Assembly: GCF_003626915.1 (NCBI RefSeq)
Contig: NZ_CP032570.1
Location: 2,603,001-2,667,000 of the forward strand
Reading direction: 5' to 3'
Source: Tsuneonella amylolytica
GTDB lineage: Bacteria; Pseudomonadota; Alphaproteobacteria; Sphingomonadales; Sphingomonadaceae
Length of the DNA: 64,000 bases
Shown: positions 34,289-37,502 of the stretch, one piece after another
Layout: each line of letters begins with the position of its first letter
How positions within the stretch are numbered: position 1 is the stretch's first letter
Notes under the pieces: generated by a model
What the model was told of the DNA's origin: nothing
The model's database searches: none
What the model saw: only the letters and a program-made list of their open reading frames with translations
Program-made: the position numbers and the translations under genes

Positions 34289-34513
34289 TTACTTCACGAT
34301 GTAGGGCAGGAGGCCGATCTGGCGCGCGCGCTTGATCGCGGTGGCCAGCTCGCGCTGCTTCTTGCCGGAAACGGCGGTGATGCGGCTCGGGACGATCTTG
34401 CCGCGTTCGGACATGAAGCCCTGCAGCAGGCGCACGTCCTTGTAATCGATCTTCGGCGCGTTCTTGCCCGAGAACGGGCAGGACTTGCGGCGGCGGAAAA
34501 ACGGGCGGGCCAT
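34289..34513 (-). CDS. rpsR: 30S ribosomal protein S18
   Basis: A 74-residue S18 beginning [17 protein letters not shown], with the conserved [19 protein letters not shown] and the [14 protein letters not shown] block. It binds S6 on the 30S platform. Its ATG shares one base with the rpsF stop (TGATG), so translation is coupled to its partner, and rplI starts 13 bases after its stop. Confidence 0.98.
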
Positions 34514-34878
34514 CAGTCGCGCTCCTCGCGGTCACGGCGCGACTTGCGGTCGCGGTCGCCCTTGCGCATCATCACGCTCGGGCCTTCCTCGTGCTCGTCG
34601 ACGCGCACGGTCATGTAACGGATCACGTCTTCGTTGATCCGGGTCTGGCGCTCCAGCTCGGCAACGACTTCGCCCGGACCGTCGATGTTCAAGAGCACGA
34701 AGTGCGCCTTGCGGTTGCGGTCGATCTTGTAGGCGAGGTTCTTGAGACCCCAGGTCTCGGTCTTGGTCACCTTGCCGTCGAGCTTCTCGACGATCTCGGT
34801 GGCCGTCGCGGCCAGTGCATCGACCTGAGCCTGGCTCAGGTCTTGGCGCGCAAGGAAAACGTGCTCGTAGAGAGCCAT
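34513..34878 (-). CDS. rpsF: 30S ribosomal protein S6
   Basis: A 121-residue S6 with the start [18 protein letters not shown], the [20 protein letters not shown] strand pair and a basic-acidic C-terminal tail after the core. It forms a heterodimer with S18 on the 30S platform. It is the first gene of the operon. The 5' leader contains a long-range inverted repeat that may bind the S6:S18 dimer and control the operon. Confidence 0.98.
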
Positions 34879-34903
34879 ATCTCACGTCCTTCGGTTGTGC
34901 CGA

Positions 34904-34972
34904 TCGCTGGCTTGTCCGTCCGGATGACGGGGCCCCTCCGGCTTTCTTCGTTTCCCCGGCCGAAGCCAGCGA
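34904..34972 (-). promoter_or_regulatory. Candidate S6:S18-binding leader RNA of the rpsF operon
   Basis: Perfect 10-base arms TCGCTGGCTT (34904-34913) and AAGCCAGCGA (34963-34972) enclose about 49 bases rich in CCGG and CCG stretches, ending 25 bases before the rpsF start. S6:S18-sensing leaders in several phyla have a closing stem around CCG-containing loops that mimic the 16S binding site. The match of position and general design is seen; the detailed consensus was not tested. Confidence 0.5.
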
Positions 34973-35063
34973 AGGCGCGCACATAGCGCCGCCGGCGGCA
35001 AAAGCAAGGCTTGTGCGGCCGCGCGGCGGCGGGCAGGGCGGCGCACCCATCAAGGAGAATGCG

Positions 35064-36032
35064 ATGCCCGGCGGACTGGTTGCCCTGCTCGACGACATTT
35101 CGGTCATCGCCCGCGTCGCGGCGGCTTCGATCGACGATGTCGGCGTCGCGGCCGGCAAGGCGGGGACGAAGGCGGCGGGCGTGGTGATCGACGATGCGGC
35201 GGTGACCCCGTCCTACGTCACCGGGCTCGATCCGTCGCGCGAGCTGCCGATCATCTGGCGCATCACGCTGGGCAGCCTCAAGAACAAGCTGCTGCTCCTG
35301 TTGCCGGGCGCGCTGCTCTTGAGCTGGCTCCTGCCGCAGGCGATCACCTACATCCTCATGCTCGGCGGCAGCTATCTGGCGTTCGAAGGGGCCGAAAAGG
35401 TCATCGAGAAGCTCGGCGGCGAGAAGCACGGCAAGACGCTGGACGACGCGATCAAGGACCCGGCGGCATTCGAGAAACAGCGAATCGCCGGCGCGATCCG
35501 CACCGACCTCATCCTGTCGGCGGAGATCATGGCGATCTCCTTGAACGAGATCGCGACGATCACCGACAGCTTCGTGACGCGCGCCGCCGCGCTGGCTGCG
35601 GTAGGCATTGCCATCACGGTGATCGTCTACGGCGCGGTCGCGCTGATCGTGAAGATGGACGACGTGGGCCTGCACCTGACGGGACGTGCGTCGGGCGCGG
35701 CGCAGGCCACCGGGCGTTTCCTGCTAAGGGCAATGCCGGTGCTTCTCGTCGCGCTGTCGTTCATCGGGACGATCGCCATGCTTTGGGTCGGCGGCGGCAT
35801 CGTGCTTCACGGACTGGAGGAGATCGGCCTCCACGCCCCGGCCGACATCGCCCACGGCATCCAACACGCGGTGGAGGAGGCGACCGGCCCCGCCAGCGGC
35901 ATATTCGGCTGGCTGACCTATGCGACCATCTCGGCAATCTTCGGCCTCCTCCTGGGCTTCGTCATCGTGTTCGTGATGCACAAGGTGCTGCGCATCGGAC
36001 ACGGCGCGGGCGAGCACGCCGAAGCGCACTGA
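35064..36032 (+). CDS. DUF808 (YedI-like) integral membrane protein
   Basis: A 322-residue DUF808 protein. The start MPGGLVALLDDISVIARVAA with DDVGVAAGKAGTKAAGVVID is the family hallmark. A central block with KTLDDAIKDPAAFEKQRIAG precedes several membrane segments, and the total is about six. AAGGAG at 35052-35057 sets the ATG at 35064. Its role is unknown; E. coli YedI is also uncharacterised. It is divergent from rpsF and convergent with the Mur-ligase-like gene. Confidence 0.88.
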   Translation: MPGGLVALLDDISVIARVAAASIDDVGVAAGKAGTKAAGVVIDDAAVTPSYVTGLDPSRELPIIWRITLGSLKNKLLLLLPGALLLSWLLPQAITYILMLGGSYLAFEGAEKVIEKLGGEKHGKTLDDAIKDPAAFEKQRIAGAIRTDLILSAEIMAISLNEIATITDSFVTRAAALAAVGIAITVIVYGAVALIVKMDDVGLHLTGRASGAAQATGRFLLRAMPVLLVALSFIGTIAMLWVGGGIVLHGLEEIGLHAPADIAHGIQHAVEEATGPASGIFGWLTYATISAIFGLLLGFVIVFVMHKVLRIGHGAGEHAEAH

Positions 36033-36033
36033 T

Positions 36034-36091
36034 CCCCGGCGTCCAGGGCCCCGGCGCTCAGGGCCCCGGCGTTCAGGTCCCGACGGTCAGG
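36034..36091. repeat. 15-bp tandem repeat between DUF808 and Mur-ligase-like gene
   Basis: Three units of CCCCGGCG(T/C)(C/T)CAGG(G/T) occupy 36034-36048, 36049-36063 and 36064-36078, followed by a degenerate partial fourth to 36091 that includes the stop of the Mur-ligase-like gene at 36087-36089. The array fills the whole gap between two convergent stops and resembles a replication-slippage expansion. Confidence 0.85.
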
Positions 36092-37502
36092 AAAGCCGCG
36101 CGAACAGTTCTTTCGCGAATTCGGTCAGGGTGTCGTCGCGCGCGCCCATGACCACGATCCGGTCGCCGGGCCGCGCCAGCGAGACCAGCCGGTCGGCCAC
36201 CGCCTTGCGGTTGGGAATGTAGTCGGCGCGGCCGCCGGCTCCCTCGATCAGGCGGACGACCCGCTCGGCCCCATCGCTGCGATCGACGGTCCCGCCGAAA
36301 TAGACCGGATCGCACAGGATCGTGCGGTCGTCGGCATCGAGTTCGCGGGCGAAGGTCTCGGCCAGTTCGTCGCCCATCTGGCGCAAGGGCCCGAACCCGT
36401 GCGGCTGGAAGAAGGCAAGCACGCGGCCCGGCGTCTGCTTGAGGGTGCGCAGGGTCGCGGCGCATTTTTCGGGGTTGTGCCCGAAATCGTCGATCACGGT
36501 GACGAGCGCATGGGTGGTGCCGATCACGTCGAACCGGCGCGCCAGGCCGGCAAAGCGGGCGAGGGCGGCGACCGCTTGCCCGACCGGAACGCCGGCCGCG
36601 CGGGCGCCGGCGATCGCGGCGAGCGCGTTCGACAGGTTGTGCCGCCCCGGCATCTTCAGCTCGAGCGGATGGGTGTCCCCGCTCGCCGTCTCCACCACGG
36701 TTGCCGAGAGCCCCGCGGCGGTGTGCGCGACCGAGCCCTCTGCGATCGTGAGGTCGGCAACCGGGCTGTCGATGCCGAACGTGACCGCGCCGAGACCGGC
36801 CGCCAGCGCGGCGCTTTCGGCATCGTCGACGTTCACCACGCGTTGCGCCGAAGCGGCGAGATAGTCGCCGAACAGCCCGCGCAGTTCCTCCAGGCTCTTG
36901 TGATCGAGGCTGACGTTGAGAAGCACCCCCACGGTCGGCCGGTAGAGCGCGATCGAGCCATCGCTCTCGTCGACCTCGCTGACGTACGTGCCGCCGTCGC
37001 CCACCTGCGCGCTGGCATAGGGGTTATCGGCGGTGACGAAGTTCTTCATCACCGCCCCGTTCATGATGGTCGGCGCGCGGCCCGCCTCGTGGAGTATCCA
37101 GCCGAGCATGGCGGTGACGGTGGACTTGCCGCTGGTGCCGGCGACCGCGATCCGCTCGTCCGCCCGGTTGAACAGCGCCGCGTTGAGGTCGGCGCGCGAC
37201 ATCCGCCGGCAGCCCAGGTCCTTCGCCCGCGCGATCTCGGGCACGCTGTCTTCCACCGCCGCGCTGGCGACGAGTACCTGCTCGGGCGAGGTCACGCCGC
37301 TGCCGTCCTGCGGGAACAGCGCGATGCCGCGACTTTCCAGCCAGTCGAACTTCTCGGGCGTGCGGCCCTGGTCGTTGCTGCGGTCGGAGCCGGCGACCGT
37401 GCCGCCCATGCCGTGGACGATCTGCGCCAGCGGCAGCATCCCCGATCCCCCGATGCCGCAGAAGAACCAGGGGCGGGCGGCGGGGTCGGGGCTTTCGTGC
37501 AT
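36087..37502 (-). CDS. Mur ligase family protein (MurC/Mpl-like)
   Basis: A 471-residue ATP-dependent amide ligase of the Mur family. The N-terminal Rossmann domain starts FFCGIGGSGMLPLAQ, as in MurC and Mpl. The central domain P-loop reads AVAGTSGKSTVTAML, with Ser for the usual His/Asn and Ser for Thr. The Mg/ATP region includes SEVDESDGS and NVSLDHKSLEEL, and the C-terminal domain has DDFGHNPEKCAATL. Because it lies head to head with an LD-carboxypeptidase gene and outside a division cluster, muropeptide recycling (Mpl role) is more likely than de novo MurC, but this is inference. The ATG at 37502 is chosen because the fold begins shortly after it. Confidence 0.78.
   Translation of the reverse strand: MHESPDPAARPWFFCGIGGSGMLPLAQIVHGMGGTVAGSDRSNDQGRTPEKFDWLESRGIALFPQDGSGVTSPEQVLVASAAVEDSVPEIARAKDLGCRRMSRADLNAALFNRADERIAVAGTSGKSTVTAMLGWILHEAGRAPTIMNGAVMKNFVTADNPYASAQVGDGGTYVSEVDESDGSIALYRPTVGVLLNVSLDHKSLEELRGLFGDYLAASAQRVVNVDDAESAALAAGLGAVTFGIDSPVADLTIAEGSVAHTAAGLSATVVETASGDTHPLELKMPGRHNLSNALAAIAGARAAGVPVGQAVAALARFAGLARRFDVIGTTHALVTVIDDFGHNPEKCAATLRTLKQTPGRVLAFFQPHGFGPLRQMGDELAETFARELDADDRTILCDPVYFGGTVDRSDGAERVVRLIEGAGGRADYIPNRKAVADRLVSLARPGDRIVVMGARDDTLTEFAKELFARLS

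Follow-up and report, generated by a model that had tools for sequence, protein, structure and literature searches.

In Tsuneonella amylolytica, and in most of the other members of the Sphingomonadales that we examined, the 5' untranslated region (UTR) of the ribosomal protein gene rpsF contains an RNA element that is conserved and covaries. The element has the two properties by which ribosomal protein leaders are generally recognized, namely a covarying conserved structure and a consistent position upstream of a ribosomal protein gene, and it probably allows ribosomal proteins S6 and S18 to control their own production. We consider it fairly likely that it is a lineage-specific S6:S18 leader of most Sphingomonadales, which represses rpsF by occlusion of the 30S subunit. 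It appears to be new, because it has no match in Rfam and we found no description of it in the literature, and its fold is unlike that of the known S6:S18 leader; others may have seen it.

The rpsF operon and the architecture of its leader

In the window (the whole stretch of 64 000 nt of T. amylolytica DNA that was analysed) rpsF occupies positions 34513–34878 on the minus strand (S6; TIGR00166, 82.7 bits) with its ATG at 34878; the encoded protein has its nearest relative in T. litorea (97% identity). The rpsF stop codon overlaps by one base with rpsR (S18; 34289–34513, minus strand; TIGR00165, 97 bits), and rplI (L9; 33664–34275, minus strand; TIGR00158, 128.7 bits) lies downstream of rpsR. 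A Shine–Dalgarno (SD) sequence, AAGGA (34887–34891, minus strand), is recognizable ahead of rpsF. Further upstream, the segment 34980–35007 (minus strand) carries promoter-like motifs, a −35 TTGCTT (35002–35007) and a −10 TATGTG (34980–34985), and the predicted transcript start falls at ∼34973. The pattern TTG[CT]-N18–22-TA[TA][GA][TCG] is found 5' of the P0 hairpin (see below) in 96 of 128 leaders. A reading frame divergent from rpsF (35063–36032, plus strand) looks hydrophobic and membrane-protein-like by eye and has no NCBIfam match.

The core element (34899–34942, minus strand; 44 nt) consists of a helix P1, an asymmetric internal loop and a hairpin P2. In P1, GCCGG (34938–34942) pairs with UCGGC (34899–34903); the internal loop has AGG (34935–34937) on its 5' side and AGCGA (34904–34908) on its 3' side. 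P2 (34909–34934) is predicted to contain the helices GGC/GCC (34932–34934/34909–34911) and CCGUC/GACGG (34926–34930/34916–34920), closed by the loop AUCCG (34921–34925); this bulged form of P2 occurs in the close relatives of the window and was excluded from the covariance model. We gathered 138 rpsF leaders, of which 128 had a scorable core (121 distinct). Their general consensus is P1 GCYGG/UCRGC, internal loop AGG/AGCGA and a variable hairpin P2, and the block GCYGG-AGG-[hairpin]-AGCGA-UCRGC finishes 12–31 nt upstream of the ATG. The AGG is present in 122 of the 128 leaders and the AGCGA in 108, and the invariant or near-invariant letters of the core are GC.GGAG and AGCGAUC.G; together with the preceding GG, the AGG makes up an SD-like GGAGG. 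The SD itself starts 7 nt past the 3' end of P1 in the window, and an SD-like motif is found in 126 of the 128 leader tails, beginning 0–18 nt past P1 (0–12 nt in 124).

A separate hairpin, P0 (34946–34974, minus strand; CUUCG/CGAAG and CUGGC-UUCG-GCCGG), lies 5' of the core. The sequence of P0 changes from leader to leader, yet its two halves match each other: over 74 leaders the native halves gave −16.4 kcal/mol vs −12.0 ± 0.31 kcal/mol for swapped halves, and none of 2000 permutations was as good.

Covariation and phylogenetic distribution

In an alignment of 24 diverse sequences, 95.2% of the cells were paired and the covariation score was 0.670, compared with 0.201 in shuffled alignments and at most 0.134 when the structure was slid along the alignment. 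The scores were 0.408 vs 0.142 (shuffled) for 45 distinct sequences and 0.382 vs 0.132 for 93 distinct sequences (97.0% of cells paired), these two alignments having been fitted to the model. RNAalifold, unprompted, returned the same pairs plus one G–C across the internal loop. The number of pairs changed on both sides did not exceed that in shuffles, with 9 vs 7.6 (matched by 46 of 500 shuffles) in the 24-sequence alignment and matches in 118 and 40 of 500 shuffles for the 45- and 93-sequence alignments. Against a tree null of 300 alignments simulated along the maximum-likelihood tree, three of 946 column pairs reached E ≤ 0.05, all of them structural (3 of the 13 pairs are thus individually significant), and the eight best-ranked pairs were all structural; with 45 sequences, two of 903 column pairs did so, both structural.

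In the general form of P2, double changes were found in all 8 pairs, whereas 4 of the 5 pairs of P1 had no double-sided change. The support for P1 comes from a single covarying pair, the middle one (C–G/U–A, changed on both sides in 14 of 93 distinct sequences; tree-null E 1.2), because the remaining pairs hardly vary. For single sequences, nearest-neighbour calculations gave P1 a mean probability of 0.36 and a median of 0.15 (n = 121), with values above 0.5 in 41 sequences, below 0.05 in 43 and of 0.0001 in the window. Such low probabilities may mean that the fold needs a ligand or non-canonical pairs, or that it is partly wrong; they would fit a fold completed by a protein but also weigh against the model.

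Analysis of the phylogenetic distribution relied on a covariance model, R1, built without the window's own sequence. It scored the window element at 44 bits (E 4.8e-13; match at 34897–34948), with the next match in the same genome at 13.9 bits, so that the core is the only strong R1 match there. The first set comprised 60 genomes including the window's own; rpsF was found in 59 and 58 leaders were used (G047 has no rpsF and G055, with a partial match, was left out). The block was present in 49 of these 58 leaders by pattern and in 46 by a stricter pattern, and R1 recovered 51 of 60 sources; two of the 51 are extra loci, and L042 is a weak match (16 bits). Across the order, R1 matched in 250 of 296 genomes at E ≤ 0.001, a few of the weakest matches overlapping the background. 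Each of 80 named rpsF loci had one R1 match, which lay before rpsF in 80/80 and ended 15–23 nt from the rpsF match in 79 (71 nt in L178), and rpsF was found downstream of all 40 further R1 matches tested. Two leaders on Sphingomonas plasmids also matched R1 (57.2 and 45.6 bits). More than one R1 match was seen in 18 genomes; the extra copies scored at most 25.8 bits, which is at background level, and had no rpsF nearby in any of the 12 examined, and we do not regard them as second copies of the element.

Several families of the order lack the element. Among the misses listed were families f3, f4 and f8, one genus (g31) of f6, G047 and one genome of f1, with 26 misses in addition to those listed by family. 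Three leaders of family f8 (L039, L052 and L053) share a different upstream pattern, GGUUAAU..UGUAAUG..GAUAUUCGU..CCCCG, which may represent yet another type of rpsF leader. In a sample of the whole class, 26 of 289 genomes matched R1 at E ≤ 0.01; four of these belonged to the window's family (41–57 bits) and the other 22 scored at most 27 bits. Among the matches listed, the place of rpsF was given for 13 of these 22 genomes, and it was elsewhere in all 13.

Proposed mode of action and alternative explanations

In E. coli, the S6:S18 complex represses translation of rpsF via its 5' UTR and both proteins are needed (PMC4647458), and by analogy we infer S6:S18 to be the ligand of the Sphingomonadales element. 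The rpsF-rpsR-rplI mRNA would carry the 44-nt cis-regulatory RNA (P1, internal loop and P2) with P0 ahead of it. Once the sites on rRNA are full, free S6:S18 would bind the internal-loop region. A protein sitting on P1 and the internal loop should lie within the 30S footprint, and the bound complex would block 30S loading, because P1 ends mostly 0–12 nt before the SD; rpsF would thereby be repressed, and rpsR too through its presumed translational coupling to rpsF. Since the SD-like motif starts within 12 nt of P1 in nearly all leaders, occlusion appears likelier than a helix that sequesters the SD.

The element could also be a real regulatory RNA for another ligand, such as one of the two proteins on its own (S18 or S6), L9, or some factor with no link to the operon. 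L9 is encoded in the same operon, and inspection by eye revealed nothing that mimics the known rRNA site of S6:S18, both of which leave room for such a ligand. However, rpsF follows the element in every one of the 80 named loci and at all 40 further matches tested, and the E. coli effector is S6:S18, single proteins being insufficient (PMC4647458), so that we regard another ligand as rather improbable. Somewhat less probable still is a translation enhancer or standby site, in which the GGAGG would capture the 30S subunit upstream and pass it on to the true SD without any protein feedback. The near-invariance of the AGG half of the loop speaks for a role of this kind, but it would leave the conserved AGCGA, the covariation of P2 and the close spacing to the SD unexplained, and two of the GGAGG bases are paired in P1. 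The presence of GC-rich hairpins (P0 and P2) near the inferred 5' end of the mRNA might suggest that the structure merely stabilizes that end or marks a site of mRNA processing; generic stability, however, does not need near-invariant letters in an internal loop, and this explanation seems quite improbable.

The first-pass annotation had placed a candidate S6:S18-responsive leader at this same locus, drawn as a long-range hairpin (34904–34972). Its perfect 10-nt arms do exist (TCGCTGGCTT at 34904–34913 and AAGCCAGCGA at 34963–34972, plus strand), and the proximal one ends 25 nt upstream of the rpsF ATG (34878, minus strand), as had been stated. RNAfold of the window leader alone prefers this long-arm pairing, which is ahead of the conserved fold by ∼2.5–3 kcal/mol with a pair probability of 0.996 in the nearest-neighbour model. 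The arms could accordingly be imagined as a functional species-specific leader, or as a switch state competing with P1 and P2. Conservation in relatives was nevertheless not borne out: the perfect arms occur in one of the 128 scored leaders, that of the window, and in the 127 others the longest complement is 2–6 nt, the same as in shuffles. The view that such a repeat was unlikely to arise by chance at this spot holds locally (mononucleotide shuffles of one 45-nt stretch, P = 1e-4) but takes no account of how many places were examined: the 64-kb window contains 14 perfect inverted repeats of ≥ 10 bp with loops of 3–60 nt, compared with 5–16 in 20 first-order Markov sequences, i.e. the repeat count is at chance. 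Moreover, the 5' arm sits inside P0, which would be expected to form earlier during transcription, and the 3' arm overlaps the AGCGA loop and a portion of P2 in the conserved element. The 10-nt arms, unique among 128 leaders, are thus a one-species coincidence and were rejected as the element; a function for them, alone or as a switch, is very hard to credit. The earlier proposal is partly supported, in that a conserved covarying RNA of the same general kind does lie at this place, whereas the structure given for it was wrong: the arms are not shared by relatives and the known leader model has no match (see below), the two outcomes that the annotation had itself named as refuting.

Comparison with other rpsF leaders

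RpsF_leader (RF02893), the S6:S18 leader known from E. coli and other bacteria, reportedly goes back to Matelska 2013, Fu 2014 and Babina 2015. It shares with the window element the location in the 5' UTR of rpsF, the rpsF-rpsR-rplI operon, the adjoining SD and a layout of two helices around an internal loop. The two differ in that P1 of the window element closes upstream of the SD and in that its near-invariant letters, GC.GGAG and AGCGAUC.G, are its own. Membership of the known leader family, which the first-pass annotation had suggested checking, was not found: RF02893 had no match at E ≤ 10 in 34500–36500, where nothing reached the family cut-off of 37 bits, whereas the E. coli control scored 110.1 bits. 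None of 289 alphaproteobacteria had a match above the cut-off (one scored 29.6 bits, ∼49 kb from its rpsF), although the RF02893 model is narrow (1 of 14 control genomes was positive), which makes the lack of a match weak evidence by itself.

The SD/anti-SD helix (H1) showed no coevolution over 74 leaders, with −8.97 for native and −9.13 ± 0.21 for permuted pairs; the native duplexes were equalled or bettered in 1539 of 2000 permutations, although they were somewhat better than duplexes with shuffled 5' ends (−8.06 ± 0.27). The pairing of CGCGCCUUC with GAAGGACGUG in the window is suggestive, but sequestration of the SD by the 5' end of the leader was rejected for want of such coevolution. A bulge of the known leader contains a conserved CCG that is analogous to the 16S site (PMC10931766). 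A conserved CC[A/G] is absent here, as CCN stands directly 5' of the SD in two of the 128 leaders (CCG in the window, CCA in L014), and the CCG of the window (ACCGAAGGA) was rejected as a conserved mimic. The 16S stretch used for comparison, which we take to be the S18 site, reads CACCAGUGG in Sphingobium, Sphingomonas and Rhodobacter and CACCGGUGG in Azospirillum; in this comparison, made by eye with the stretch seen for four of the six taxa obtained, the core, which lacks CACCAGUGG, had no convincing counterpart, and 16S mimicry was set aside. The CUGGAGG of the element presumably resembles E. coli 16S; at the corresponding place Sphingobium and Sphingomonas 16S read UUCGGAAG. Judged from these sequences, the Sphingomonadales element is not the known S6:S18 leader, because it has no RF02893 match, no coevolving SD helix and no conserved CC[A/G].

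Many other alphaproteobacteria have a different, E. coli-like rpsF leader. In 110 leaders from outside the order, CCN precedes the SD in 76 (53 CCA, 14 CCG and 9 other, by the same pattern), and 56 of the 110 fit a looser pattern with an upstream UCCUUG, a few of them starting at a second upstream copy. A model built from 28 such leaders (R2) had 95.8% paired cells and double changes in 11 of 18 pairs, compared with 4.6 in shuffles; it matched in 102 of 289 class genomes, its own sources partly included, and eight matches examined lay 14–20 nt from the rpsF match. The leader validated in E. coli also aligns with R2, at UCCUUGCC..GGCU..CCGUAAGGAG (17.5 bits; E 0.0012 for 2.5 kb). The R2 leaders belong to rpsF in the same class as the window element but differ from it in carrying one hairpin more as well as the sequences UCCUUGCC..GGCU and CC[A/G]nnAAGGAG. 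R2 had no match at E ≤ 0.01 in the window's own genome, and the 58 loci of its order, the window's included, gave none at E ≤ 1; as R2 contains the SD helix, this result also counts against such a helix there. Conversely, when R1 was run over the E. coli locus together with 99 of the 110 other alphaproteobacterial loci, three weak matches came up (14.6, 11.1 and 8.9 bits), the best being a partial match to a P2-like hairpin inside the leader of L119 itself. Descent of the R1 core from hairpin H3 of R2 was considered by eye and, with this one partial match, is a conjecture. We hold it about as likely as not that, within this one class, an ancestral S6:S18 leader that mimicked rRNA gave way in Sphingomonadales to an unrelated RNA of 44 nt, which the same two proteins would recognize without CC[A/G] and which would repress by occupying the region beside the SD, not by sequestering the SD itself. 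L319–L326 and the class-wide R2 matches show the E. coli-like leader, with its additional hairpin and with CCA or CCG ahead of the SD, in many alphaproteobacteria outside the window's order; RF02893 misses it.

Rfam 15 had nothing overlapping the window's element at E ≤ 10 and no match at E ≤ 1 to five relatives of the element or to four R2-type leaders. A literature search by listings and text passages, Fu 2014, Matelska 2013 and supplements aside, found no description of the element. Eckert and Weinberg (2020; PMC7247131) note the 'conspicuous absence' of the S6:S18 leader in Alphaproteobacteria and mention unpublished promising motifs; the word rpsF is absent from the text, as far as available, of two later motif surveys (PMC8632094, PMC11109978). 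There are now two searchable answers to this alphaproteobacterial gap: an E. coli-like CC[A/G] leader in many members of the class and, in Sphingomonadales, a different element with strong covariation. Should both of them bind S6:S18, the same two proteins would recognize dissimilar RNAs in different orders of a single class, and the turnover of ribosomal protein leaders and rRNA mimicry would become directly testable.

Lineage-specific leaders of this gene are described elsewhere. The S6:S18 leader of Chlorobi lies before rpsF, has no apparent rRNA mimicry and, like the window element, stands in place of the widespread leader, according to Eckert and Weinberg (2020; PMC7247131); it comes from a different phylum and is set beside the window element by description, not by structure. 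In Sinorhizobium meliloti, sra29 is a detected RNA of ∼110 nt that, like the window element, comes from an alphaproteobacterium and was judged a probable leader of rpsF (del Val 2007; PMC2245857). Neither R1 nor R2 recognizes the rpsF leader of S. meliloti strain Ak57 (at E ≤ 1) or that of Methylobacterium. A third type of leader before rpsF, with GGGCCUUC..GGCUCGAAGGGCUU.GCGCC and similar sequences, can be recognized by eye in Hyphomicrobiales- and Rhodobacterales-like genomes, its carriers being S. meliloti (L356, 240–400), Methylobacterium (L359, 240–400), L205, L234, L240 and L276.
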